A stretch of DNA of 64,000 nucleotides from Janthinobacterium sp. TB1-E2. GTDB taxonomy: Bacteria; Pseudomonadota; Gammaproteobacteria; Burkholderiales; Burkholderiaceae_D. Of the stretch, positions 9,666 through 23,472 are shown in pieces. The translations under genes and the position numbers were made by a program. Position 1 is the first letter of the stretch, and every line of letters begins with the position of its first letter. Under the pieces are notes generated by a model, which saw only the letters and a list, made by a program, of their open reading frames with translations, searched no databases and was not told the DNA's origin. Where the stretch lies: positions 4,030,001-4,094,000 of the forward strand of contig NZ_CP142523.1 of the NCBI RefSeq assembly GCF_036885605.1. The letters run 5' to 3'.

Positions 9666-10943
9666 TTACTCATACCGCAGCGCCTCGGCCGGCTTGACAC
9701 GCGCGGCGCGCCAGCTCGGGTAGATGGTCGCCACCAGCGCCAGGCCAAAGGCGATCAGGCCGATCTGCGCCACGTCCAGCCAGTGCACGTCCGACGGCAC
9801 GGCGCTGATCTGGTAGATTTCCTTCGAGATGAAGTGCAGGCCGAAGATGCCTTCGATGAAAGGCACGATGACGCCCACGTTCAGCGCCAGCACGACGCCG
9901 CCGATCACGCCCAGGGCACTGCCCAGCAAGCCGACCAGCGCGCCCTGGATCATGAAAATCTTCATGATGGAGAATGGCGAGGCGCCCAGGGTGCGCAAAA
10001 TCGCGATATCGGCCTGCTTGTCAGTGACCGACATCACCAGGGTCGAGACGAGGTTGAACGCGGCCACGGCGATGATCATGCTGAGGATGATGAACATCAT
10101 GTTCTTCTGGCTTTGCACCAGCGCATACCAGCTGGCACTGGCGCGCGACCAGTCGCGCATCCACAGCTGGCCGGGCATCGACGCTTTGAGTTCACGCGCC
10201 ACCTGCGGCGCCTTGTTCATGTCATGCAGGCGCAAACGCAGGCCGGACGGGCCGTCGAGCTGCAGCAGCTGCTCCGCATCCTGCATGTTGACGAAGGCCA
10301 GGCTGCCATCGAGTTCATTGTGGCCCGCCTCGAAGATGCCGGCGACCTTGAGCGCGCGCATGCGCGGCATGACGATGCCATTGGCCGGATCGCCCGCCCT
10401 CGGCTCGCGTTCCAGCATCAGGGTGACGTTCTGCCCCACTTTCACATCGAGCGCCTTGGCCAGGTCGATGCCCAGCACGATGTTGTACGAACCTGGCGTC
10501 AGATCGTTGAAACTGCCCTGCTTCATCTGGCTCGCCACGCTCGAGACGGTGGCTTCCTGCTGCGGCAGCACCCCGCGCACGACGGACGGGCGCATGGTTT
10601 CGTCGTTGAGCAGCATGCCCTGGGTTTCCACGAACGGCGACACGGCCTTGACTTGCGGGTTGGCGTAGGCGGCGCGCTCCTGCGCCTGCCAGTTCGGCAT
10701 GGAGCCGCTGGTATCGAACACCTCGACGTGGGCCAGCACCGACATCAGGCGGTCCGTGACCTCCTTCTGGAACCCGTTCATGACGGACAGCACGACGATC
10801 AGGGCGGCCACGCCCAGGCCGATGCCGGCCACGGAAATGAGGGAGATGAAGGAAATGAAGCTGTTGCGGCCACTGCGTTTCCCGGCGCGCGTATAGCGCA
10901 CGCCGACCTGCCACTCGAAGGGAAATTGTTTGATGATGCTCAT
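9666..10943 (-). CDS. lolC: LolC/LolE-family lipoprotein-releasing permease, copy 1
   Basis: The product is 425 residues from ATG 10943 (MSIIKQFPFEW); a longer frame from 11003 adds an unrelated leader and is rejected. It has the same architecture as the downstream copy: [19 protein letters not shown] before the first helix, a periplasmic domain, then three C-terminal helices and the ending [13 protein letters not shown]. With the second copy it should form the membrane heterodimer served by LolD. It is the first gene of the leftward lol unit. Confidence 0.88.
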   Translation of the reverse strand: MSIIKQFPFEWQVGVRYTRAGKRSGRNSFISFISLISVAGIGLGVAALIVVLSVMNGFQKEVTDRLMSVLAHVEVFDTSGSMPNWQAQERAAYANPQVKAVSPFVETQGMLLNDETMRPSVVRGVLPQQEATVSSVASQMKQGSFNDLTPGSYNIVLGIDLAKALDVKVGQNVTLMLEREPRAGDPANGIVMPRMRALKVAGIFEAGHNELDGSLAFVNMQDAEQLLQLDGPSGLRLRLHDMNKAPQVARELKASMPGQLWMRDWSRASASWYALVQSQKNMMFIILSMIIAVAAFNLVSTLVMSVTDKQADIAILRTLGASPFSIMKIFMIQGALVGLLGSALGVIGGVVLALNVGVIVPFIEGIFGLHFISKEIYQISAVPSDVHWLDVAQIGLIAFGLALVATIYPSWRAARVKPAEALRYE

Positions 10944-11048
10944 GCGCTCCCGCGACAACGATGATATGCGAGCGCGCAGTGTGCCACATAATGGGCATTT
11001 CATGCATCAAGTCTGCGTGATCCATGTGTGAAACCGCGCACGCCGGCC

Positions 11049-12344
11049 CTATTTTGCCTCCTGCGCCAGGCCGAACGCGTCCAGCAGCCGCCCCGCCAGC
11101 GCGTACTGGCGCATCTGCGCCACGGTCAGACGGTGCAGCTGGTCGCTGCGCCGCTGCTGTATCGTGAAATAGCTGTCGCGCGTCTGGATGACCTGCTGCA
11201 GGTTGCGCCGGCCTGCCTCATATTGGATGGTCCCGCCGCGCACGACGAAGGCCATCTTTCTTTCCTGCTCGTCGAGCAGGGCCAGGGTGCGCTGCGCATT
11301 GGCGATGCGCGGCAGCATGCTGGCCAGGTCGGCGCGCGTGCCCTGCTCGGCGCGCGCCACGTCCGCCTCGGCCGCCTGGGCGCGGCTGATGCTCTCGTCG
11401 CGCTGCGCCAGGCTGCCCCCGCCCAGCGGGAATTCCCAGGAGACGCCCACCGACCAGCCCCGCTGCTGGATGGTCGACGGCGGCGGCGTGGTCTTGTTAT
11501 TCAACAGGTGGCTGACATTCAGGTCCACTTTTGGCGCCAGGGTGGCCGCCACGCTGCGCACGCGCAGCTGGGCCGCCGCCGCCCGCTCGCGCGCGGCGCG
11601 CAATTGCGCGTGCTGCGTATCAGCATTCTCCAAAGCCTGCGCCGGCAGCGGCGCGAAGGCGAAATCGGCAAACTGCGCCACCGGCTCGAAGGCCAGCGCT
11701 TCGAGCTTGATGCGCGCCGCCTGCTGGTCCGTCAGCAAGCCGTCGTGCACCAGTTCCGCGTCCAGCTGCGAGCTTTGCGCCAGTTCGCGGTCCACTTCCG
11801 ACGCTTTGCCCAGCTCCGCCTGGCGCGTCACCTGCAGCACCAGTTGCGTCACGTCGCGCAGCCGTTCCTGCGACTGCTGCAGGCTGCGATCCAGGCGTTG
11901 CATGTCGAAATACGCTTCGGCCAGCTTTTCCGCGCTGTCCGCGCGTGCGCGCTCCACGTCGAAGGCGGCACCCGCCATCTCGCGCTCGGCCGCATCGAGT
12001 TCGGCGCGGTCGGCGCCGCCGTTGTAGACATTCCAGCGCACGCTCGCTTCCACCTGGTGCGTGCGGCGTTCCACGTCCAGGGTGCCGTCGAGGTCGTTGC
12101 TGCGCCCCCGCGTGGCCTGCAGCGCCGCCGTCGGGAACAAACGCGAGCGGGCCTGCTTGTAGCGCGCTTCGGCGGTGGCCAGCGCCGCCTGCGCCGCGAT
12201 CACCTGCGGATCGCGCGGCACGGCGCGGGCCAGCAAGGCCGGCAAGCCGCGCACGGACTGCGCCTGGAAAGCGGCCGGTGGCGCTGGTTGGGCGGCCGCG
12301 TTTGCGCAGGCGAATGCCATGAAAAGTAAAAAAGCACGCATCAC
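11049..12344 (-). CDS. TolC-family outer-membrane channel of a type I secretion system
   Basis: The 431-residue product has a signal peptide (residues 1-18, MMRAFLLFMAFACANAAAQ) and two related helical halves rich in Ala, Gln and Arg, as in outer-membrane efflux proteins. WNVYNGGADRAELDAAE is the usual barrel/helix junction motif. It should form the trimeric outer-membrane duct for the exporter encoded upstream. Its ATG overlaps the adaptor gene stop by 4 bases. It is the last gene of the secretion locus. Confidence 0.85.
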   Translation of the reverse strand: MMRAFLLFMAFACANAAAQPAPPAAFQAQSVRGLPALLARAVPRDPQVIAAQAALATAEARYKQARSRLFPTAALQATRGRSNDLDGTLDVERRTHQVEASVRWNVYNGGADRAELDAAEREMAGAAFDVERARADSAEKLAEAYFDMQRLDRSLQQSQERLRDVTQLVLQVTRQAELGKASEVDRELAQSSQLDAELVHDGLLTDQQAARIKLEALAFEPVAQFADFAFAPLPAQALENADTQHAQLRAARERAAAAQLRVRSVAATLAPKVDLNVSHLLNNKTTPPPSTIQQRGWSVGVSWEFPLGGGSLAQRDESISRAQAAEADVARAEQGTRADLASMLPRIANAQRTLALLDEQERKMAFVVRGGTIQYEAGRRNLQQVIQTRDSYFTIQQRRSDQLHRLTVAQMRQYALAGRLLDAFGLAQEAK

Positions 12345-13654
12345 CGCTCCTGCAGGGAAGACTGCAAGCCGCGCAGCACGGGCTTGAACACATATTGCAG
12401 CACCGAGCGGCGCCCCGTCAGGATGCCCACGTCGACGGGCATGCCGGGCGTAATCGGCAGCACCTTGCCGTGCGCCGTCAACTGGCTGCGGTCGGTACTC
12501 AGCTGCACCTCGAAATACGGCTCGTTGCGTTCATCGGGAATCGCATCGGCGCCCACGCGCACCACCTGCGCCTGCATGCGTCCATACGTGGTGGCGTCAT
12601 ACGCCAGCACATTGGCCGATGCACGCTGCCCCACGTGGATAAAACCGATGTCCGACGGCTTGACGCGCACGGAGATCAGCATTTCCGAATCGGCGGGCAC
12701 GATTTCCAGGATAGGTTTGGCCGGCTGTGCCACGCCGCCGACGGTCGCCACCAGCACGCGGTTGACGACGCCGTCGACGGGCGCCGTCACGTCGCGTCGG
12801 CTCACCTGGTCTTGCTGCCCCTTGACGGTGCTGGCCAGGGCGCCGGCCTTGGTTTCGTATTCGCTGCGCTGGGCGCCCCACTGGCCGCGCATGCGCGCTT
12901 CCACTTCGCCGGCCTGCGCCTGCGCCTCGGCCAGGGTGGCCGCCAGGCGTGGCACGGACGCGCGCAGGCCGTCGAGTTCCGTGCGCTGCTGCTGCACGCG
13001 CTGCTGCGCGTTCAGATAATCGCCGCGCGAACCGGCGCCCTCCTTGAACAGGCGCTCTTCGATCGACAGGCTTTCCAGCGCAATCTTGAGGCCCGTGTCG
13101 AGTTGCGCGATGCGGCCGTGCGCCTCGGCCAGCTCGCCGCGCCGGCGCGTCACGCCTTCGCGCGCGGCCGCCGTGGCCGATGCGAACTCGCGCTGGCCAT
13201 CGCGCCACAACTGCGTTTCCTTGGCGATCAGCTCGGGCGCTTCCTGCTGCCATTCCGGCGCAAACCGGGGCGTGCCGCCGGACAGCAACGCGTCGAGGCG
13301 CGCCCTGCCCGCCAGCGCGGCCAGGCGGTTTTGCACGCTGGCGCCCAGATTGGCCTCGTACTGGGCCGTGTCCAGGCGCAGCAACAAGTCGCCGCGGCGC
13401 ACGCGCTGGCCCGGTTTCACGAGCATTTCACGCACGATGCCCCCTTCCAGGCTTTGCACTTCCTGCAAATGCGATGGCGGCGTAATGGCGCCACGGCCAT
13501 TCACGGACACGTCGAGCTGGGCGAAGGTGGCCCAGGCCAGGATCAACACCAGCAGCACGGCGATCAGGGCCAGCATGCAAAGAACAATGCGCTGCGGTTC
13601 GCGTTCCGGGTCCGGGTGGGCCGCCGGCAAAGGACGGGCGTTCAGGGCGCTCAT
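12341..13654 (-). CDS. HlyD-family membrane fusion protein of a type I secretion system
   Basis: The 437-residue product has a short cytoplasmic N-terminus, one membrane helix (about residues 24-46), a lipoyl-like half (GAITPPSHLQEVQSLEGGIVREMLVKPGQRV), a long coiled coil, a second lipoyl half with VTAPVDGVVNRVLV, and the C-terminal beta domain ending GRRSVLQYVFKP. This matches HlyD/LapC adaptors that bridge the ABC exporter and TolC. It overlaps both neighbours by 4 bases, indicating a tightly coupled exporter operon. Confidence 0.9.
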   Translation of the reverse strand: MSALNARPLPAAHPDPEREPQRIVLCMLALIAVLLVLILAWATFAQLDVSVNGRGAITPPSHLQEVQSLEGGIVREMLVKPGQRVRRGDLLLRLDTAQYEANLGASVQNRLAALAGRARLDALLSGGTPRFAPEWQQEAPELIAKETQLWRDGQREFASATAAAREGVTRRRGELAEAHGRIAQLDTGLKIALESLSIEERLFKEGAGSRGDYLNAQQRVQQQRTELDGLRASVPRLAATLAEAQAQAGEVEARMRGQWGAQRSEYETKAGALASTVKGQQDQVSRRDVTAPVDGVVNRVLVATVGGVAQPAKPILEIVPADSEMLISVRVKPSDIGFIHVGQRASANVLAYDATTYGRMQAQVVRVGADAIPDERNEPYFEVQLSTDRSQLTAHGKVLPITPGMPVDVGILTGRRSVLQYVFKPVLRGLQSSLQER

Positions 13655-15804
13655 GCCGCCACTCCCTGTTCCGCCGCAGGCCTGGCCGCCTGGCTGTTCA
13701 ACACGCGCATGACCTCATCGCGCGGGCCGTCGGCCACGATGCGCCCCTTGTCGAAGACGATCAGACGGTCCACCAGCGCCAGCATGGCCATGCGGTGGGT
13801 GACCAGCACGATGGTCGTGTCTTTCAATGACCGCAGGCGACCGATCAGGCGCTGCTCGGTCGCCGGGTCGAACATGCTGCTCGGCTCATCGAGCAGCAGC
13901 ATGGTCGGTTTCGCGAGCAAGGCGCGAGCCATGGCCACAGCTTGCCGCTGGCCGCCGGACAGGCGTTCGCCCCGCTCGCCCACTTCCGTCGCCACGCCGT
14001 TGGGCAGCTGGGTGATGATGTCGTCGAGGCAGGCCAGGCGGATGGCGTCGAGCAGACTGGCGTCGTCGGGCTGGCTGCGTCCCAGTTCGATGTTTTCGCG
14101 CAGGGTGCCGTGGAACAGGGTCACGTCCTGCGGTACGTAGCCGATCTGGCGGCGCAGGCTCAAAGGTTCGAGCTGGGTGCTGGCCAGGTCGTCGAACAGC
14201 ACGCTGCCGCTTTGCGGGCCGTACTGGTTCAGCAGCAAGCGCAGCAAGGTGCTCTTGCCGGAACCGAGCTTGCCGATCACGCCGACCCGTTCGCCGGGGC
14301 GGATGTGCAGGTTGAGTTTATCGAGCAGCGGCGGCGAATTCGGGTAGGCAAAGCCCACGTCGCGAAACTCGATGCGCCCGGACAGGGGCGGCGCCTGCAG
14401 GCTGGCCGCGTCGTCATCGGTCGGCGCTTCCATGATTTTATTCAGAGCGTGGTAGGACAATTTGGTCTGCTCCCAGCGCATGATCAGGCCCGCGATCTGG
14501 CTCACGGGCGCCAGCGCGCGGCCTGTCAGCATGCTCACGGCGATGATCTGGCCCAGGGTCAGCAGGTGTTCGCCCATCAGCAAGGCGCCCGTGGCCACCA
14601 CGGCCACGCCGGACAGGGCCAGCACGGCCGTGTTGATGTAATTGACGCGGCTGACGATTTCGCGCGTCTCGACGCTGTTGGCGGCGATGGCCACCGTCAG
14701 GCTCTCCCATTTGCGCCGGCTCCACGCTTCGGCGCCCAGCGCCTTGATGGTGTCGAGGCCATTCATGGTTTCAAACAGGTGCGCCGTGCGCTGCGCGCTT
14801 TCCTGCATCGAGGCGGCCACGTGGCGCGCCAGGGCCGCGCGCGAAGCAAAGGCCACCAGCAGCAAAATCGGGATGACGGCCAGGGGCACGAGCACGAGCC
14901 AGCCGCCCACCAGGGCGATCACCAGCAGGAACAGCAGCAGGAACGGCAAGTCGCCCAGGGTCGTCAGGGTGGTCGAGGCAAAGAATTCGCGCACGGATTC
15001 GAAATCGCGCACGGTATTGGCCAGGGTGCCGCCGGAAGCGGGCCGGCTGGCCGCGCGCAGGCGCAAACACTGGGCAAAGATGTTCGACGACAACGCCACG
15101 TCCATGCGGCGCGACGCCGTTTCCACCAGTTCGCCGCGCAGCAGGCGCAGGGCCAGCTCGAAGCCCGTCAGCACCACGACGGCGATCGTCAGCACCCACA
15201 GGCTGGACGTGGCATTGTTCGGGATCACGCGGTCATACACGGCCATCGCATAGAACGGCACCAGCGCGCCGATGATATTGAGCACCAGGGTGCCCAGCAA
15301 GGCCCAGCGGAAGACCCAGCGGCTGCGGTTGAAGACATCCCAGAACCAGCGCCCCGCCACCGGCATGCTGTAGAGCAGGCTGCGCTGGTCGAAAAACAGT
15401 ACGGGCCGCACGGCCACCCAGCGTCCGTCGGGCACTTCCCGCGCCAGCGCGGCCGCGTCCAGCCAGGCGCTGCCTTCGATGCCGGGCACGTGGCATTCGT
15501 ATTTGCCGTCAGCAATAGTCAACACCACCAGCGCCTGCCCTTCCCCATTGAGCAGCAAGGCCGGCATTTCCGTCGGGCGACGCGGCGTGCCTGCTGGCAA
15601 CGCGGTGCCGGCCAGGGTGGCTTGCGCCAGCGCCTGGTCGAGGAAATCGGCGGCGGCCGGGCTGGTCTGGGCCGCCACGCTGGCGCGCAGGCGCTCGGCC
15701 TGCACGGCCACGCCGAAAAAGCGCGCGAGGAAGACGATGGCATCGGCGATGGCATCGGTGGACGCGCCGGCGGAAGCGGTGGAAGTATCGGGGGGTGGGG
15801 TCAT
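13651..15804 (-). CDS. Type I secretion ABC exporter with degenerate C39 domain
   Basis: The 717-residue protein has a C39-peptidase-like N-terminal domain (about 1-150), six membrane helices (about 160-450) and an ATPase domain with Walker A GKLGSGKST near 511, signature LSGGQRQAVAMARAL and Walker B MLLLDEPSSMFD. No catalytic cysteine lies at the expected start of the C39-like domain, so it should bind substrate without cutting it, as in LapB/RtxB-type exporters. The likely cargo is the SdrD_B protein encoded at the head of the locus. Confidence 0.9.
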   Translation of the reverse strand: MTPPPDTSTASAGASTDAIADAIVFLARFFGVAVQAERLRASVAAQTSPAAADFLDQALAQATLAGTALPAGTPRRPTEMPALLLNGEGQALVVLTIADGKYECHVPGIEGSAWLDAAALAREVPDGRWVAVRPVLFFDQRSLLYSMPVAGRWFWDVFNRSRWVFRWALLGTLVLNIIGALVPFYAMAVYDRVIPNNATSSLWVLTIAVVVLTGFELALRLLRGELVETASRRMDVALSSNIFAQCLRLRAASRPASGGTLANTVRDFESVREFFASTTLTTLGDLPFLLLFLLVIALVGGWLVLVPLAVIPILLLVAFASRAALARHVAASMQESAQRTAHLFETMNGLDTIKALGAEAWSRRKWESLTVAIAANSVETREIVSRVNYINTAVLALSGVAVVATGALLMGEHLLTLGQIIAVSMLTGRALAPVSQIAGLIMRWEQTKLSYHALNKIMEAPTDDDAASLQAPPLSGRIEFRDVGFAYPNSPPLLDKLNLHIRPGERVGVIGKLGSGKSTLLRLLLNQYGPQSGSVLFDDLASTQLEPLSLRRQIGYVPQDVTLFHGTLRENIELGRSQPDDASLLDAIRLACLDDIITQLPNGVATEVGERGERLSGGQRQAVAMARALLAKPTMLLLDEPSSMFDPATEQRLIGRLRSLKDTTIVLVTHRMAMLALVDRLIVFDKGRIVADGPRDEVMRVLNSQAARPAAEQGVAA

Positions 15805-15907
15805 AATGGATTCACAATAAAACGCTGCGGCGCACCGGTCGGGCGCGCCGCAGCGGGAACGCTATCGCTTGCGCGATGAGCGATAAGCAATAATTAATGA
15901 GCAATAA

Positions 15908-16579
15908 TTAAATCAGCGCGGAAGCGCCCTTGCGGCGGCGCGCCATGAAGCCCAGCAGGCCCAGGCCCGCGACCAGCATGGCCCAAGTCTGCGCTTCCGG
16001 CACCGGCGACACAGCCAGCAAGGTTTGCGAAGCCGGGTTGACGCTGCTCAAGCTCGTGTAGTTGTACAGGTTCTGGATGGCGCCATTGCCCGTGGCCACG
16101 CCCAGCATGGTGTTGGCCTGGCTGACGACGGCATTGCTCAGGCTTTTGAAGCGCAGGTCGCCCGTCAGCAGGTTCGTGTTGTCGTTATTCAATTCCCACA
16201 GGGCCAACTGGAAGGCGGCGGCGCTGTTGGCGCTGGTCGACACACTGGCGACGGACGAGGCGTAATAGCCTTCATACAAGCGCTTGACGGAATCGCTGGC
16301 GGCGAAGGCGCCGCTGCTGTAGCTGTTCGAATTGTTGCTCAGTGCGACATGGGGATCGAGGCAAAACGCCAGGAAGGTGTTGCTGTCGTATTTGACTTCC
16401 CACAAGGTTGGCGAGATGGCGCTGCCCGAGCCGAAGGCGCCGCCGGTAGCCGTAAACAGGCTGACGCTGTGCGAATCGACGACTTGCAGGTTGGAGGCGG
16501 CCAGGGCGCTGCCGCTGGCCAGGGCGAACGTGGCGGCGGCGATGGCGCCGCGGACGAACAGGTGCATGGATTGTTTCAT
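15908..16579 (-). CDS. PEP-CTERM surface protein with thioester-domain-like Cys and Gln motifs
   Basis: The 223-residue protein starts at ATG 16579 (MKQSMHLFVR), following a GGGAAACC ribosome-binding site; the long upstream extension to 16828 is rejected. It has a Sec signal peptide (residues 1-28). A C-terminal PEP-CTERM tail, VPEAQTWAMLVAGLGLLG followed by Arg-Arg-Arg, indicates exosortase-dependent surface sorting. Between them, FCLDP at about residue 73 and FQLALWE with Gln at about 124 resemble the Cys and Gln motifs of thioester domains, which in Gram-positive adhesins form an internal Cys-Gln bond that attaches covalently to targets. The thioester reading is inference. The gene sits between the type I adhesin and its exporter. 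Confidence 0.75.
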   Translation of the reverse strand: MKQSMHLFVRGAIAAATFALASGSALAASNLQVVDSHSVSLFTATGGAFGSGSAISPTLWEVKYDSNTFLAFCLDPHVALSNNSNSYSSGAFAASDSVKRLYEGYYASSVASVSTSANSAAAFQLALWELNNDNTNLLTGDLRFKSLSNAVVSQANTMLGVATGNGAIQNLYNYTSLSSVNPASQTLLAVSPVPEAQTWAMLVAGLGLLGFMARRRKGASALI

Positions 16580-16694
16580 ATTGGTTTCCCTATTTCTATT
16601 ATCAAGTGTGGAAAAAGCGTGGAAAGCGCCGGCGCCCCGTGACGGGTGCGCCGGTGCGGCATTGCCGGGCAGGATTACGGGCCGGCAAGGGACA

Positions 16695-19600
16695 TCAGGC
16701 AGCCATTTCCTGGGGCTGGGTATTTGCGTGGGCCATGGCGCGGCGCAAGAGGTCGGCCATCTCGCACTGGGCATGGGCTTCGGCAGCCGGGGCAGCCTGG
16801 GCGGCAGCGACCGTGTTGACCGTGCCATCCTGGCCCAGCACCACGTCGAGCGTGCTGTCGTCGCGCAGCAGGTCGGCCATGCTTGGCAAGGTCACGCCGG
16901 CGGCGGCCGCATCCTTGGCATCGACGTTGAAATACACGTCCGTCATGTCGACCGTCTTGCCGTCGGCCAGGGTGGCGCTGCTGCGCTCGAGGTGCAAATT
17001 GCTGTTGGCGTCGAGGAACGGCAGTTCCGTGTAGCTGACCGTCAGGCTGGCCACGCCGGCGTCGTGTAAGGACATCAATTCGCCGTCGTCCGTCACGCCG
17101 TTGCTGTTGGCGTCGCGCCAGATGCGCAGTTCCGCGAACTTGTCATCGTGGGCATCGACCACGCCGTCGCCGTTCGAGTCATAGCTCGACAGCTTGGCAA
17201 AGCCCGTGCCCTTCTCGTTGCCGCCGAACAGTTCGGAGATGTTATCGATCTTGCCATTGCCATTGCCGTCGATGGCCAGCAAGCCGTCCTGGGCCGAGAC
17301 CCAGCCCGTCTGGATGGCGCTGCCCGTGCCCAGCAAGTCGAAGCTGCCGTGGAAGTCGGCGCGGGCGATCGTGTGCACGCCGTCACCGTTGAGGTCGATG
17401 ACGATGGGCGTGATGGCCGCATCCCAGCTCATGTCGTTCTGGCCCGACGCCAGTTTCAGGATGTCCGTGTAGACCACGTTGCCCGTCGTGCCATTGCTGT
17501 TGACGTCAGAATCGATGTTGTCGTTCGTGCCCACGTTCTTCGCGCCCCAGCGCCATGTATCCATGGCGTAGCCCGCGTGATACACGCCCGACTTGTCGAA
17601 TTTGAGCGAATAGCTGCCCGGATCGAGGTTGCTGAACAGGTAGTTGCCGTAGGCATTCGTGTAGGTGGTGGCCAGCAGCACGCCACTGCCCGAGTACAGC
17701 TGCACCTTGATGTTGGCGATGCCCGCCTCGTTGTAGTCCTGCACGCCATCATGGTCGGCGTCGCGCCACACCTTGTCGCCCAGGCTGGCCTTGCGGTAGA
17801 TGCCCGCATCCCAGCTCATGTCGTTCTGGCCTGCGGCCAGGTTGATCAGGCCCGAGCGCCCCGTGCTGACATCGACGTCGGAATCGGCCGTGTCAACACC
17901 CACATTGGCCTTGGTGTAATAGAAGCCCGATGGACGGATGACTTCCACCTTGTAGCCGCCGGCCGCCAGTTCGCTGAACAGGTAATTGCCGCTGGCATTC
18001 GTCGTCGTCGTGGCGATGACCTGGTTGTACGCGTTGAGCAGATTGACTTTCACGCCCGCCACGCCCAGTTCGCCCGCCTCCTGCACGCCGTTGTAGTTCC
18101 TGTCTTCCCACACGCGGTCGCCGATGGAAGCCGTGTTCAGTTTCACCAGGCCCGCATCCCAGTCCAGCTGTACGTCGCCCGACTTCAGGGTGGTCCACGT
18201 GGTGGTGAAGCCGGTGGCCGGATTGACGTCCGAATCGGTGGCGTAACCGCCGATGTCCGCCTTGGTGAAGCCGTAGCCGGCCGGCGGCACGAAGCCCAGG
18301 TAGTAATTGCCGGGAACCAGGTTGCTGAACAGATAATTGCCGCTGGCATCCGTGGTGGCGCTGGCCACGACGGCACCTTGCGCGTTGTACAGGTTGACTT
18401 TCACGCCACAGACGCCCGTCTCGCCCGCATCCTGCGTGCCGTTGCCGTTCGCATCGAACCACACGCGGTCGCCGATGGACGCCGTCTTGTACAGGCCGGC
18501 ATCGAGATCCCTGTAGTTCTGGCCGGCAGCCACCGTCACCTGGCCGCTGTTGCCCAGCGTATTGATGTCGCTGTCGAGCGCATCGTTGCCGCCCGCATCC
18601 TTGACCGTCGTCAGATAGCCGGCGGGGGCGACGACGGCGATCGAATACGTGCCGGGGTCGACATTGAAGTTGTAATAGCCGGTGGCGTCCGTCAAGGTCG
18701 AACCGATCACGCTGCCGGCCGCGTTTTTCAGCTGCACGGTGACGCCGACTATGCCCGCTTCGCCCGCATCCTGCACGCCATTCATGTTGCTGTCATGCCA
18801 GACCCGGTCGCCCAGGGTGGCTGGCAAGGCGACGATGCCGGCGTCCACGCTGTGGTTGCTGTCGCCCGAGGCCAGCAGCACTTGCGCCGTGCGGCCGTCG
18901 GCATTGGCGTCCGAGTCGCGCTGGTCATCGCCGCCCTGGTCCTGGCCCGTGAAGGCGTAGCCGGCTGGCAAGGTGGTTTTATCGAACTGCACGCTGTAGG
19001 CGCCCGGTTTCAGGTTCGTGAACAGGTAGTTGCCGTTCGCATCCGTCAGCAGCGGGCTGCCGATGGCGTTGCCCGATGCATCGAGCAAGGTCACTTTCAC
19101 GCCTGCGGCGCCCGCTTCACCCGCGTCCTGCACGCCATTCCTGTTCGTATCGAACCAGACCCGGTCGCCCAGCTCGGCCGTGCGGTACAGGCCCGCATCA
19201 AGGCTCAAATTGGTTTCGCCCGGCGCCAGGGTGACGGACGCCATCTTGCCGGCCGCATCGATATTGCTGTCCTTGGCCGTGTCGCCGCCCTGGTTCGCTG
19301 CCGTCGGCACGTAGCCGGCGGGCGCCACCACGGTCACCGAATAGGTGCCCGGATTGACATCGAAGTGGTAGCCGCCGCTGGCGTCCGTCGTGGTGGAGGC
19401 CACCACATTGCCGGCCGTATCCTTCAATTGCACGACAACATTGGCGATGCCCGCCTCGCCCGCGTCCTGCACGCCGTTGGCGTTCTTGTCTTCCCACACG
19501 AAATCGCCGAGGTGGGCCATCGGCACCTTGAAGGTCAGGTAATGGGGCGCCAGGCTCAGGTCTTGCGCATTGCAGCCTTCCGTGCCGCCATCATCGCGCA

Positions 19601-20198
19601 CCTTGAAACCGAGGTCGAAGTCGCCGGCCACGGTCTGGCTGGGCACGAAGACCAGGTGACCCGCGCGGATATCGTCGATGGAGACTTCCGTGCCCACCGC
19701 CACGGCCACGCCGTTGAGCAAGACCTGGCCCGCCGTGGTGGTATTGGTGATGACGATGGACTTGAAGCCGTCGTGCTCGACGTCGTCGTGGAAGCCGAAA
19801 TCGCTTTCGCTCAGCACGACGCTGGCACCGTCGACCAGAGTGAAGGTCTTGTCGGCCGCATCGGGCGCATCATTGACGGGATCGATAATGACTTGCAGGC
19901 TCAGCTGGACGATGTCGCCATTACCCTTGTCGATCGTCACCTGGATGGTCGAGAAGCTGCCATTGTAGTTGGCGGCCCAGTCGCCGGGACGCACGTACAC
20001 GGTGTCCGCGTCCTGCATGCCGAACAGCGGCGTGTTTTCCGTCGATTCCGTATCGTCCGGCAACAAAACCGTGAAATTCTTGATATTCAGTTCGCCTTGC
20101 ACCGAGTAGCCGGCCTGGATCAGCAGGTCGCGGATATCGAAATTCTTGTTGATGTCTTCGCAGACGTGGACCGTGGTCGACAGGTTGTAGGTAGTCAT
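16695..20198 (-). CDS. Large SdrD_B-repeat adhesin, probable type I secretion substrate
   Basis: The product is 1167 residues from ATG 20198, which has GGAGG five bases upstream. There is no signal peptide. Residues 1-225 form a cadherin-like region containing DPVNDAPDAADKTF. Six SdrD_B (Cna-B-like) domains follow, each about 115 residues and opening with variants of LGDRVWxDxNxNGVQDAGE, at about 227, 339, 457, 571, 688 and 803. The C-terminal part (about 930-1167) has Ca-binding-like loops such as DLNGDGVHT, DGNGNGKID and DSNGDGVVD. A leaderless, Ca-binding, repetitive giant next to a type I exporter is the expected cargo, probably an adhesin for surfaces or biofilm. Classical RTX nonapeptides are absent. 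Confidence 0.82.
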   Translation of the reverse strand: MTTYNLSTTVHVCEDINKNFDIRDLLIQAGYSVQGELNIKNFTVLLPDDTESTENTPLFGMQDADTVYVRPGDWAANYNGSFSTIQVTIDKGNGDIVQLSLQVIIDPVNDAPDAADKTFTLVDGASVVLSESDFGFHDDVEHDGFKSIVITNTTTAGQVLLNGVAVAVGTEVSIDDIRAGHLVFVPSQTVAGDFDLGFKVRDDGGTEGCNAQDLSLAPHYLTFKVPMAHLGDFVWEDKNANGVQDAGEAGIANVVVQLKDTAGNVVASTTTDASGGYHFDVNPGTYSVTVVAPAGYVPTAANQGGDTAKDSNIDAAGKMASVTLAPGETNLSLDAGLYRTAELGDRVWFDTNRNGVQDAGEAGAAGVKVTLLDASGNAIGSPLLTDANGNYLFTNLKPGAYSVQFDKTTLPAGYAFTGQDQGGDDQRDSDANADGRTAQVLLASGDSNHSVDAGIVALPATLGDRVWHDSNMNGVQDAGEAGIVGVTVQLKNAAGSVIGSTLTDATGYYNFNVDPGTYSIAVVAPAGYLTTVKDAGGNDALDSDINTLGNSGQVTVAAGQNYRDLDAGLYKTASIGDRVWFDANGNGTQDAGETGVCGVKVNLYNAQGAVVASATTDASGNYLFSNLVPGNYYLGFVPPAGYGFTKADIGGYATDSDVNPATGFTTTWTTLKSGDVQLDWDAGLVKLNTASIGDRVWEDRNYNGVQEAGELGVAGVKVNLLNAYNQVIATTTTNASGNYLFSELAAGGYKVEVIRPSGFYYTKANVGVDTADSDVDVSTGRSGLINLAAGQNDMSWDAGIYRKASLGDKVWRDADHDGVQDYNEAGIANIKVQLYSGSGVLLATTYTNAYGNYLFSNLDPGSYSLKFDKSGVYHAGYAMDTWRWGAKNVGTNDNIDSDVNSNGTTGNVVYTDILKLASGQNDMSWDAAITPIVIDLNGDGVHTIARADFHGSFDLLGTGSAIQTGWVSAQDGLLAIDGNGNGKIDNISELFGGNEKGTGFAKLSSYDSNGDGVVDAHDDKFAELRIWRDANSNGVTDDGELMSLHDAGVASLTVSYTELPFLDANSNLHLERSSATLADGKTVDMTDVYFNVDAKDAAAAGVTLPSMADLLRDDSTLDVVLGQDGTVNTVAAAQAAPAAEAHAQCEMADLLRRAMAHANTQPQEMAA

Positions 20199-20431
20199 GC
20201 GGCCTCCTGACGGCATGCCACGGCGGCGGCAGGAGCGGAAATACGGAGGGCCAGGGCGCGATCAGCCTGGCCGTGCAAAGCGGCGAATGTATACATAGGT
20301 GGGCTTCCAAGAAGGGACTTGTTTAAAAATGAAGCCGGCAGATCTTGTATACAGTTTCGAGGGACACAGGAGCCAGACGACGCAACCACGCAGCAGGGGG
20401 TGATTGTCTTTCTAATATTTAAGTTGTCGCA

Positions 20432-20459
20432 ATTATATCCAGTATCTTTTCAAAAGCAA
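20432..20459 (-). promoter_or_regulatory. Predicted promoter of the adhesin/type I secretion operon
   Basis: On the minus strand, TTGCTT (20459-20454) and TATAAT (20437-20432) are separated by 16 bases, a good sigma-70 match in an AT-rich spacer. Transcription would start near 20425, giving a 5' leader of over 220 bases before the adhesin ATG. The rest of the spacer 20199-20589 shows no gene. Confidence 0.6.
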
Positions 20460-20577
20460 ATTAATTTCCATCAATATCAATAAAATTTTTATAATTTTTT
20501 CGCATACCCGGCGCGGGCGGTGTTGCCATCGGGGGCCTGAAAATAGATGCACCTTCTCGGCCCCCACCACAATCGCC

Positions 20578-20583
20578 TACAAT
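20578..20583 (+). promoter_or_regulatory. Predicted -10 box immediately before the recJ operon (possible leaderless start)
   Basis: TACAAT ends only 6 bases before the ATG at 20590, and no Shine-Dalgarno sequence is visible between them. If this is the true -10 element, transcription would begin at or next to the start codon, giving a leaderless mRNA. No clear -35 was identified; a GGGGGCC/GGCCCCC inverted repeat (20531-20537, 20559-20565) lies just upstream. Confidence 0.4.
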
Positions 20584-20589
20584 CTCGGG

Positions 20590-21654
20590 ATGAATCAACT
20601 TACCCTCGTCCTGCCCTTCGCCTTGCCCAATGCCGAACTGGCTGCCGACCTGCTCAAGGTCTTGCAGGCGCCCGCGCTGGCGGCGCTGCTGTCGCGCACC
20701 TCCACTTGCAATTTGGAAATTTTTGACAACACCAACCGCCTGCTGCCGCACGAAGCGTGGCTGGCGCACGCCTTGAGCCTGTCGCCCGCGCCCAACGGCG
20801 AGGCGGCGCAATCGGCCTTTGCCGCCCAGGCCATGCGCGGCTACGGCCTCGTGCCGGAACCGGGCGCGCGCTACTTCATGCTGCATCCGGCCCACCTGGC
20901 CATCGCCCGCAGCCATATCAGCCTGGAAGACTTGCGCCAGCTCAAGCTGAGCGAGGCCGATGGCCGCGCCCTGTTCGACATTGCGGCTCCGTATTTCGAC
21001 GAGATCGGCCAGCCCCTCGCGTATGGCGACGCGGGCACCTGGTTCATGCGCGCCGACGCCTGGTCCGACTTGCAGTGCGCCACGCCGGACGCCGCCACCA
21101 CGCAAGACCTGTCCGTGTGGATGCCGGAAGGCGAGCATGCGCGCGCCGCGCGCCGCCTGCAAAACGAAGTGCAGATGCTGTGGCATGAACATCCGGTCAA
21201 TGCGGCGCGCGAAGAGCGGGGCTTGAAAGCCATCAATTCCTTCTGGATCTGGGGCGGGAGCCTGGCCACGGCCACGGCCGCACCTGCATCGGCGCGCTGC
21301 GCGGCCAGCCTGCTTACGAAGGACGCACCGGGCTGGCTGGCCGCGCTGGCGGAACCGGCGCAGCGCGATGCCAGTCCAAACAGTGTGCTGGCAAGCGAAC
21401 AGGACGCGATCGTCGTGCTGGGCGGCCTGACCGAAGCGGCGCAGGCGCAGGAATGGGGCATGTGGCTGCAGCAGTTGCAAGCGCTGGAAGCGGACTGGTT
21501 CGCGCCCCTGCTGGCGGCCCTCAAGGATGGCCGTCTGGGCCAGCTGCGCCTGGTGCTGAGCCACCGCGACGCCTGGCTGGACTGCACCACCAGCAAGAAT
21601 GCGCAGCGCAAATTCTGGCGCGCGATTACCCTGAACAAGTTGAAAGCATCATGA
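20590..21654 (+). CDS. Conserved protein encoded upstream of recJ (phosphoglycerate-mutase-like/RpfE type)
   Basis: The 354-residue cytoplasmic protein begins MNQLTLVLPFALPNAELAADL. It has no signal peptide and no membrane helices, and contains LRQLKLSEADGRALFDI, DLSVWMPEG and INSFWIWGGG-like segments (INSFWIWGGS). Homologues next to recJ in betaproteobacteria are, as I recall, annotated loosely as phosphoglycerate-mutase-like or RpfE-type regulatory proteins; no catalytic motif is recognisable here. Its stop overlaps the recJ start (ATGA), so the two are probably translationally coupled. Confidence 0.7.
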   Translation: MNQLTLVLPFALPNAELAADLLKVLQAPALAALLSRTSTCNLEIFDNTNRLLPHEAWLAHALSLSPAPNGEAAQSAFAAQAMRGYGLVPEPGARYFMLHPAHLAIARSHISLEDLRQLKLSEADGRALFDIAAPYFDEIGQPLAYGDAGTWFMRADAWSDLQCATPDAATTQDLSVWMPEGEHARAARRLQNEVQMLWHEHPVNAAREERGLKAINSFWIWGGSLATATAAPASARCAASLLTKDAPGWLAALAEPAQRDASPNSVLASEQDAIVVLGGLTEAAQAQEWGMWLQQLQALEADWFAPLLAALKDGRLGQLRLVLSHRDAWLDCTTSKNAQRKFWRAITLNKLKAS

Positions 21655-23351
21655 CCCGTACCCGCATCACCACCCGTCCCTGCCCCTACCGCGAATCCGA
21701 ATTGCTGCGCCAGGGCGGCATCCATCCCGTGCTGGCCCGCTTGTACGCGTCGCGCGGCCTGTCCGACGCGAAAGAACTCTCGATCGAGCCGAAAGACTTG
21801 ATACCGCCGTCCGGCTTGCTGCACATTGGCGCGGCCGGTGTCTTCCTGGCCGACGCGATTGCCGCCAAGAAACGCATGGTCATCGTGGCCGACTACGATT
21901 GCGACGGCGCCACCGCCTGCGCCGTGGCCATACGCGGCTTGCGCGCCATGGGCGCCGACGTCGATTTCATCGTGCCCAACCGCTTTGAATACGGCTATGG
22001 CCTGACGCCGGAAATCGTCGAACTGACGGCGCGCGAAAAGTCGCCCGACATCATCATCACCGTCGACAACGGCATCGCCAGCATCGATGGCGTGGCCGAA
22101 GCGAACCGGCGCGGCATCCAGGTGGTCGTCACCGACCACCATTTGCCGGCCGACACCCTGCCCGACGCAGCCGTCATCGTCAACCCGAACCAGCCCGCCT
22201 GCGGTTTCCCCAGTAAACATCTGGCGGGCGTGGGCGTCGTGTTCTACGTCTTGCTGGCCCTGCGCGCGGAAATGCGCCGGCGCGGCCTCTTTGATGCGCA
22301 AACGCAACCGAAGCTCGACAACCTGCTCGACCTGGTGGCGCTGGGCACGGTGGCCGACGTCGTGCGCCTCGATACCAACAACCGCATCCTCGTCGCACAA
22401 GGCCTCAAACGCATGCGCAAGGGCCATATGCACGCGGGTGTGGCGGCCCTGTTCCGCGTGGCGGGCCGCGAAGCGCGCAGCGCCACGCCGTTCGACCTGG
22501 GCTTTGCCCTGGGACCGCGCCTGAATGCGGCCGGCCGCTTGCAAGACATGTCGCTGGGCATCGAATGCCTGGTCACGGACGACGAAGGCCGCGCCTGGGC
22601 GCTGGCGCAGCAATTGAACGACATCAATCTGAAGCGCCGCGAGATCGAAGCGGAAATGCAGGATACGGCCCTGCTGCACCTCGACGCTTTCGAGCCGGCC
22701 AACAGCAGCACCATCAGCGTCTTCGATGAATCGTGGCACCAGGGCGTGATCGGCATCGTGGCCTCGCGCCTGAAGGAAAAATTCTACCGCCCGACCATCA
22801 CGTTTGCGCCCGGCGCTGACGGCTGGATCAAGGGCTCCGGACGCTCGATCCCCGGCTTCCACTTGCGCGACGCGCTCGACCTCGTGTCGAAACGGGCACC
22901 TAGCCTGATCGACAAGTTCGGCGGCCACGCCATGGCGGCAGGCTTGACCATCCGCGCCGACGCCTTCGATGCGTTTTCCAAGGCCTTCGAAGCCGTGGGC
23001 CAGGCCTGGCTCAGCCAGCAACAGCTGGAACGGGTCGTGGAAACGGACGGCCCGCTGGAAGACGCCTATTACACGACGGCCTTCATCGAGCTGATGGATG
23101 GCCAAGTGTGGGGCCAGGGCTTCGCCCCGCCCGTCTTCTGCGACGAGTTCCGCGTCGTCAGCCAGCGCATCCTCAAAGAGCGCCACTTGAAACTGCTGCT
23201 GGAAAAGAACGGCGTGCGCTTCGACGCCATCTGGTTCGGGCATACGGATGCCTTGGGCGAACGCACGAGGGTCGCGTTCAGACTGGATGCGAATGAATAC
23301 AATGGCACGACAAAAGTACAGCTCATGGTGGAGCACGCCGAACCTGTGTAG
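21651..23351 (+). CDS. recJ: RecJ single-strand-specific 5'-3' exonuclease
   Basis: The product is 566 residues from ATG 21651, overlapping the upstream stop. It has the DHH-family motifs VADYDCDGATA near residue 80, ITVDNGIA near 140 and VTDHHLP near 160. The DHHA1 region carries GHAMAAGLTI, and a C-terminal OB domain follows. RecJ trims 5' single-stranded DNA in recombination and mismatch/base-excision repair. In E. coli recJ is followed by prfB and lysS; here those lie 15.6 kb downstream. Confidence 0.95.
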   Translation: MTRTRITTRPCPYRESELLRQGGIHPVLARLYASRGLSDAKELSIEPKDLIPPSGLLHIGAAGVFLADAIAAKKRMVIVADYDCDGATACAVAIRGLRAMGADVDFIVPNRFEYGYGLTPEIVELTAREKSPDIIITVDNGIASIDGVAEANRRGIQVVVTDHHLPADTLPDAAVIVNPNQPACGFPSKHLAGVGVVFYVLLALRAEMRRRGLFDAQTQPKLDNLLDLVALGTVADVVRLDTNNRILVAQGLKRMRKGHMHAGVAALFRVAGREARSATPFDLGFALGPRLNAAGRLQDMSLGIECLVTDDEGRAWALAQQLNDINLKRREIEAEMQDTALLHLDAFEPANSSTISVFDESWHQGVIGIVASRLKEKFYRPTITFAPGADGWIKGSGRSIPGFHLRDALDLVSKRAPSLIDKFGGHAMAAGLTIRADAFDAFSKAFEAVGQAWLSQQQLERVVETDGPLEDAYYTTAFIELMDGQVWGQGFAPPVFCDEFRVVSQRILKERHLKLLLEKNGVRFDAIWFGHTDALGERTRVAFRLDANEYNGTTKVQLMVEHAEPV

Positions 23352-23353
23352 TG

Positions 23354-23472
23354 ACACCTGACAGTACCTACTGCGCGTCGGTATAGGCGGCCTGCGATGC
23401 TCACCGTACTAGAAGTACGGTTGCGCTTCTCGGCCACCTCTCCCTTCCGCTCGCTACGGTACTGTCAGGTGT
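23354..23472. repeat. 119-bp imperfect palindrome with 15-bp perfect terminal inverted repeats
   Basis: ACACCTGACAGTACC (23354-23368) is exactly complementary to GGTACTGTCAGGTGT (23458-23472). Inside is a central hairpin CCGTACT-AGA-AGTACGG, flanked by further imperfect complementarity. The unit begins 3 bases after the recJ stop and has no coding capacity. It has the form of a MITE or large REP-type element and could also act as a terminator. No target-site duplication was found by eye. Confidence 0.65.

Follow-up and report, generated by a model that had tools for sequence, protein, structure and literature searches.

Five collinear genes lie between recJ and lolE in the window, by which we mean the whole stretch of 64,000 nucleotides of Janthinobacterium sp. 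TB1-E2 that was analyzed. They are ordered as an SdrD_B adhesin, a 223-residue protein combining a predicted thioester domain (TED) with a PEP-CTERM sorting signal, and the LssB, HlyD and TolC components of a type I exporter (Table 1). Janthinobacterium is a Gram-negative genus of soil and water.

Table 1. Positions of the cassette genes and of the features within and around the TED/PEP-CTERM gene, numbered from the first nucleotide of the window.
Feature	Position	Strand	Basis
TED/PEP-CTERM gene (223 aa, P0002)	15908..16579	-	ORF and Pfam matches; orthologues at 52-97% identity
Putative signal peptide, residues 1-27, end ALA|AS	16499..16579	-	read off the sequence
Predicted thioester-domain fold, residues 28-191	16007..16498	-	AlphaFold2 pLDDT 79, pTM 0.80; PDB matches all TEDs
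Cys73 codon, within FCLD (fits [YFL]C-Phi-zeta); predicted Cys of the thioester	16361..16363	-	
FQLALWE, residues 123-129, helical TQxxPhiW motif; Gln124 not the predicted thioester residue	16193..16213	-	
Gln185 codon, within SQTLL; predicted Gln of the thioester	16025..16027	-	
PEP-CTERM sorting signal, residues 192-216	15932..16006	-	PF07589
SdrD_B adhesin, 1173 aa; partner gene, its product a presumed type I substrate	16695..20216	-	SdrD_B E 2e-203, 7 stretches
Type I secretion permease/ATPase, LssB type	13651..15804	-	TIGR03375 740 bits, cut-off 693
HlyD-type periplasmic adaptor	12341..13654	-	TIGR01843 347 bits, cut-off 209
TolC-family outer membrane protein	11049..12344	-	PF02321 E 6e-37
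Promoter-like site TTTCCA-16-GATAAT, immediately 5' of the TED gene	16598..16625	-	consensus scan only
Terminator-like hairpin in the gap between TED gene and exporter	15823..15855	-	14-pair stem, 12 GC pairs, then TTTT

The original prediction had placed the gene between a giant SdrD_B adhesin and a type I exporter, inside an operon. The position is borne out, with the adhesin upstream and, downstream, two exporter genes over the cut-offs of TIGR03375 and TIGR01843 and a TolC-family gene. The adhesin is indeed of the SdrD_B kind, but at 1173 residues it is large rather than giant; no anchor domain occurs among the Pfam families listed for it. As for the operon, all the genes are collinear, but a terminator-like hairpin (15855-15823) separates the TED gene from the exporter. 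With this strong hairpin behind the TED gene and a promoter-like site in front of it, the arrangement is better read as a gene cluster. An 828-aa ORF at 20871-23357 (-) was considered as a further upstream gene of the cassette and rejected; it is an antisense shadow of recJ (21453-23351, +) and has no family match.

The ORF at 15908-16579 contains everything the original prediction had read in it, namely a signal peptide, FCLDP with Cys73, the Gln124 motif FQLALWE, and a PEP-CTERM tail. Cys73, in FCLDP, is the sole cysteine of the 223 residues. The tail matches PF07589 at 30.2 bits against a cut-off of 20.7 and comprises the PEP motif, hydrophobic segment and basic tail of an exosortase substrate; with exosortase encoded in the genome, processing of the protein is predicted. 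Two exosortase genes exceed the cut-off of PF09721, and more than 20 other PEP-CTERM-like tails occur in the same genome. The NCBIfam PEP-CTERM families (FxDxF, MHFG and others) gave sub-cut-off matches only to the protein. The Pfam TED model (PF08341), proposed earlier as a check, matches residues 71-155 at 22.4 bits (E 1.7e-4), which passes the curated cut-off of 22 by a narrow margin. This is its one match in the 6.3-Mb genome. Since the model matched nothing in any of 14 control genomes, the match stands above chance. By Pfam, the chain consists of TED and PEP-CTERM alone, and thus differs from TIE proteins, in which a TED, an isopeptide or ester stalk and LPXTG are joined in one chain.

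Structure prediction, the other check proposed earlier, likewise points to a TED. AlphaFold2 was given residues 28-196 with 15 sequences and returned a model of middling confidence (pLDDT 79.1, pTM 0.80; pLDDT 77-79 over the two models described here). The model consists of strands, three helices (69-83, 90-104 and 123-135, model numbering) and two terminal strands, and the Gln of FQLALW (Gln124) is located in helix 90-104. When it was compared with the PDB by Foldseek, the top 28 rows were all TED proteins (E 4.7e-5 to 0.022), and the following row had an E of 0.68. VIA-align ranked BaTIE best (Z 13.1, rmsd 3.1, 147 residues), with EfmTIE86 (Z 12.2), CpTIE (10.2) and SfbI (9.0) among the other TEDs; 13 entries reached Z >=7.8, every one a TED protein, and the best unrelated chain had Z 3.5. 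Identity to the known TEDs in these structural alignments is about 12-17%. When the PDB was searched by sequence, neither the protein itself nor a profile returned a TED; the TEDs were found by fold comparison alone. A second model, for a homologue from an uncultured betaproteobacterium (L037, 33% identical), again had TEDs as its sole matches. The beta barrel, three-helix bundle and terminal strands of the TED fold are seen in both models. The seven-stranded beta-sandwich that class II TEDs insert before the last strand is absent (helix 123-135 and strand 145-152 of the model are only about 10 residues apart), and helix alpha-0 of class I, between strand D and alpha-1, is not seen in this middling-confidence model.

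Homologues were gathered with a profile (A2) built without the PEP-CTERM tail; a tailed profile collected mostly unrelated PEP-CTERM proteins. Genomes with an A2 match numbered 55 of 393 in the family sample, 19 of 250 in the order sample and 6 of 398 in the phylum sample; four of the last six lie outside the order. The Pfam TED model scored above its cut-off in none of 300 genomes of the order, so the family is mostly missed by it. At E <=1 it matches 12 of the 15 members of a further alignment (A3), the best at 1.3e-5. A search of a plasmid collection found no homologues. TED-like proteins with VPxPA-type C-terminal tails (L114, L115, L117 and L118) occur in a taxonomic family outside the order, probably one of the Alphaproteobacteria.

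The equivalents of Cys73, Gln124 and Gln185 are all aligned in 80 of 87 unique homologues; the A2 members were chosen by a pattern with the Cys and Gln124, so that these two positions, unlike the terminal Gln, are partly favoured. In four of the 87 the terminal Gln only and in one the Cys only is unaligned, where the alignment ends or misplaces the residue, and the motif is readable in each. With these five truncated alignments read by eye, the Cys is kept in 86 of 87 and the terminal Gln likewise in 86 of 87. The exception to both is one protein (L034:5890-6639, also L225), in which the Cys has become Ser and the terminal Gln Ala, with FQLALW retained. Its identity to an intact homologue with a linked adhesin is 75%. 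No adhesin lies near this copy, and its genome carries a second TED that is adhesin-linked and intact. With one loss per position among 87, the two would coincide by chance in about 1/87; this is a single event. The co-loss is modest evidence on its own, yet agrees in direction with the structural register described below. Another homologue (L205:558-1343, -) carries Ala where the helix has Gln124, with the Cys and terminal Gln intact and an adhesin adjoining (L242).

These sequences bear on the question of which Gln would pair with Cys73. In known TEDs, the thioester Gln belongs to a third, C-terminal motif, PhiQzetaPhiPhi, and the Gln of the TQxxPhiW helix was found dispensable for the bond by mutagenesis of one TED (PMC4450167, PMC6194298). 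The Cys motif is defined as [YFL]C-Phi-zeta (PMC4450167), which FCLD fits. FQLALW fits the helical motif with Phe in place of Thr, and SQTLL fits the terminal motif, described as weak, except for the Ser, not hydrophobic, at its first position. In the alignments with CpTIE, SfbI and PnTIE, model Gln158, which is Gln185 of the protein, precedes the last aligned residue by 8, 7 and 8 positions. These offsets, which give the register on the presumption that the last 7-8 residues are gap-free, are identical to those of the thioester residues Gln267 (CpTIE), Gln261 (SfbI) and Gln247 (PnTIE), as numbered in PMC4450167. In the second model the SfbI offset is off by one. The original prediction had instead joined Cys73 to Gln124. 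Both residues are strongly conserved, and Gln124 is expected close to the Cys, since the equivalent Gln of known TEDs hydrogen-bonds to the Cys backbone (PMC4450167). That pairing is nevertheless very improbable: besides the dispensability of the helix Gln in the characterized TED, the homologue without a helix Gln still has its Cys and terminal Gln, and the double-loss protein retains the helix Gln though the other two residues are gone. Gln124 is rather the Gln of the TQxxPhiW helix. On the basis of the register with three crystal structures, the 86/87 conservation, the natural double loss and the loss of Gln124 alone, the likely partner of Cys73 in the predicted bond is Gln185 of SQTLL.

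In 85 of the 87 homologues the aligned domain has a single Cys, which makes a disulphide within the domain unlikely. Alternatively, the TED fold could be present without a reactive bond; the surface protein would then have a structural role or bind a ligand, and the conservation of its Cys and Gln would have some other cause. The support for a bond consists of fold and conservation, and the Pfam score is barely above the cut-off. However, the Cys is lone and unpaired in nearly all members and was lost jointly with the Gln, whose register equals that of proven thioesters, and we consider a bondless domain unlikely.

The TED gene travels with its neighbours. Within the genus, 18 of 40 genomes have the TED and 18 of 40 the adhesin, and the two lists are identical. 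In 17 genomes lacking both, the recJ-lolE site could be read, and none of the five cassette genes lies between. recJ and lolE are 0.9-1.6 kb apart in the cassette-free genomes, with two at 6.5 kb, and 10.45 kb apart in the window. The five genes are gained or lost as one block. The recJ-lolE interval (9666-23351 in the window) is a variable site, and two genomes (L270 and L279) carry 6.5 kb of other DNA there. As far as the contigs extend, the adhesin-TED-LssB-HlyD-TolC order is unchanged in another 15 genomes of the genus and at loci of two other genera; in this comparison L033 is the same strain as L155. Among other genera of the family, Duganella-like relatives, the TED gene lies directly behind a same-strand SdrD_B gene at 33 of 37 loci, the four exceptions being the double-loss copy and three distant homologues. 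In Duganella-like genomes (as at L223:5721-7758), the adhesin-TED pair stands beside lol-like genes of the FtsX/MacB type and for an ABC ATPase, with no type I exporter directly downstream. In another Burkholderiales family (L254:1-10481) the same order recurs: a cadherin/Ig-type protein (1584 aa or more) is followed by a TED with PEP-CTERM, LssB and HlyD, and then by a 435-aa ORF. More distant relatives are mostly without such a neighbour. Many of them have no SdrD_B adhesin close by, so a link with this adhesin cannot account for the family as a whole.

Taken together, the sequence family, predicted fold, conserved residues, co-loss and gene linkage point, with good though not complete confidence, to a stand-alone, stalkless TED of a diderm that would be exported by Sec, sorted by exosortase, closed by a Cys73-Gln185 thioester and placed beside a separate, stalk-like adhesin. 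The bond itself, the exosortase processing, the type I export of the adhesin and the amine target are the predicted parts of this scheme. After Sec export the PEP-CTERM tail would be sorted by exosortase. During folding, Cys73 at the end of a beta-strand would attack Gln185 just before the last strand with loss of ammonia, leaving a thioester buried between the barrel and the three-helix bundle, and Gln124 and Trp128 of the central helix would support the Cys. If a lysine or another amine docked there, it would become covalently joined to Gln185. An internal thioester, its reaction with a lysine amine and an isopeptide bond to the TED Gln are established in Gram-positive TEDs (PMC4450167). The stalk-like partner would be the product of the SdrD_B gene immediately upstream, for which the neighbouring type I system is the presumed exporter. 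Because the mature protein barely exceeds the TED and Gln185 lies eight residues before the sorting motif, the reaction is expected close to the anchor.

The most likely role is covalent attachment, either of the cassette adhesin to cell surface or matrix, or of the cell to a surface. The linkage would be accounted for if the TED fixed the adhesin covalently, and it is the gene linkage that suggests the adhesin as target. A more specific possibility, on the doubtful side, is that the functions of a TIE protein are split in diderms between two proteins, a TED sent by Sec and exosortase and a repeat stalk sent by type I secretion, which the thioester joins covalently outside the cell, with the TED as the adhesin's anchor. 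Compatible with our general scheme, and with a chance not far from even, is a bond that is real but directed elsewhere, joining the cell to a host, to other cells or to an amine-bearing exopolysaccharide, a kind of polymer with which PEP-CTERM proteins are associated. In Gram-positive bacteria, TEDs attach to host fibrinogen or act in cell contact (PMC4450167, PMC8092201), many distant relatives lack the adhesin, and a thioester Gln beside the sorting signal may react near the anchor. Such a target accords less well with the strict co-presence, co-absence and order of the TED and adhesin genes in Oxalobacteraceae, and with the L254 locus, where a TED is paired with a different, cadherin/Ig-type adhesin and the same exporter.

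When TEDs were surveyed, they were found in Gram-positive bacteria only (PMC4450167), and in the literature searched no paper was found that brings together 'thioester domain' and 'PEP-CTERM'. Relative to the literature found, the architecture and the host are new. A TED-like protein with PEP-CTERM in a betaproteobacterium, adjoining a type I adhesin, is upheld as originally described; the accompanying idea of a new type of surface chemistry goes too far, as the kind of cell and the architecture would be new but the chemistry itself a known one. If the scheme is true, covalent adhesion chemistry would reach into the diderms through a family of TEDs in Burkholderiales and in more distant Pseudomonadota, and a set of otherwise unexplained PEP-CTERM proteins would gain a testable function. 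It would also hint at a way of holding type-I-secreted adhesins that have no obvious anchor.

The closest likeness is to the Gram-positive class I and II TEDs of TIE adhesins (SfbI, Cpa, CpTIE, PnTIE, BaTIE, SaTIE; PF08341), which share the predicted fold and the Cys, helical QxxPhiW and terminal Q-zeta-Phi-Phi motifs in the same order and register. In contrast to these, the 223-aa protein belongs to a diderm, bears PEP-CTERM instead of LPXTG, and is nearly all TED when mature, whereas theirs forms the tip of a stalk; it lacks the class II beta-sandwich and has no clear class I alpha-0, and the SdrD_B repeats reside on a separate neighbouring protein. The TIE protein of pLS20 from B. subtilis, whose role in conjugation is backed by C68S (PMC8092201), has a near-identical Cys motif (YCID there, FCLD here), and neither protein is sortase-anchored, but the pLS20 protein is large, multidomain and Gram-positive. 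With the PepA-like exosortase/PEP-CTERM proteins of floc-forming betaproteobacteria, the protein shares a signal peptide, a short exported domain and a PEP-CTERM tail; it scores 28.7 bits with the PepA model NF033554, below the 80 required, and no TED is reported for PepA in the literature found. Finally, the cassette resembles clusters of large type I secreted adhesins with LssB, HlyD and TolC in that an adhesin and its dedicated exporter lie together, and differs from them in the extra TED/PEP-CTERM gene, which lies between the two and travels with both.
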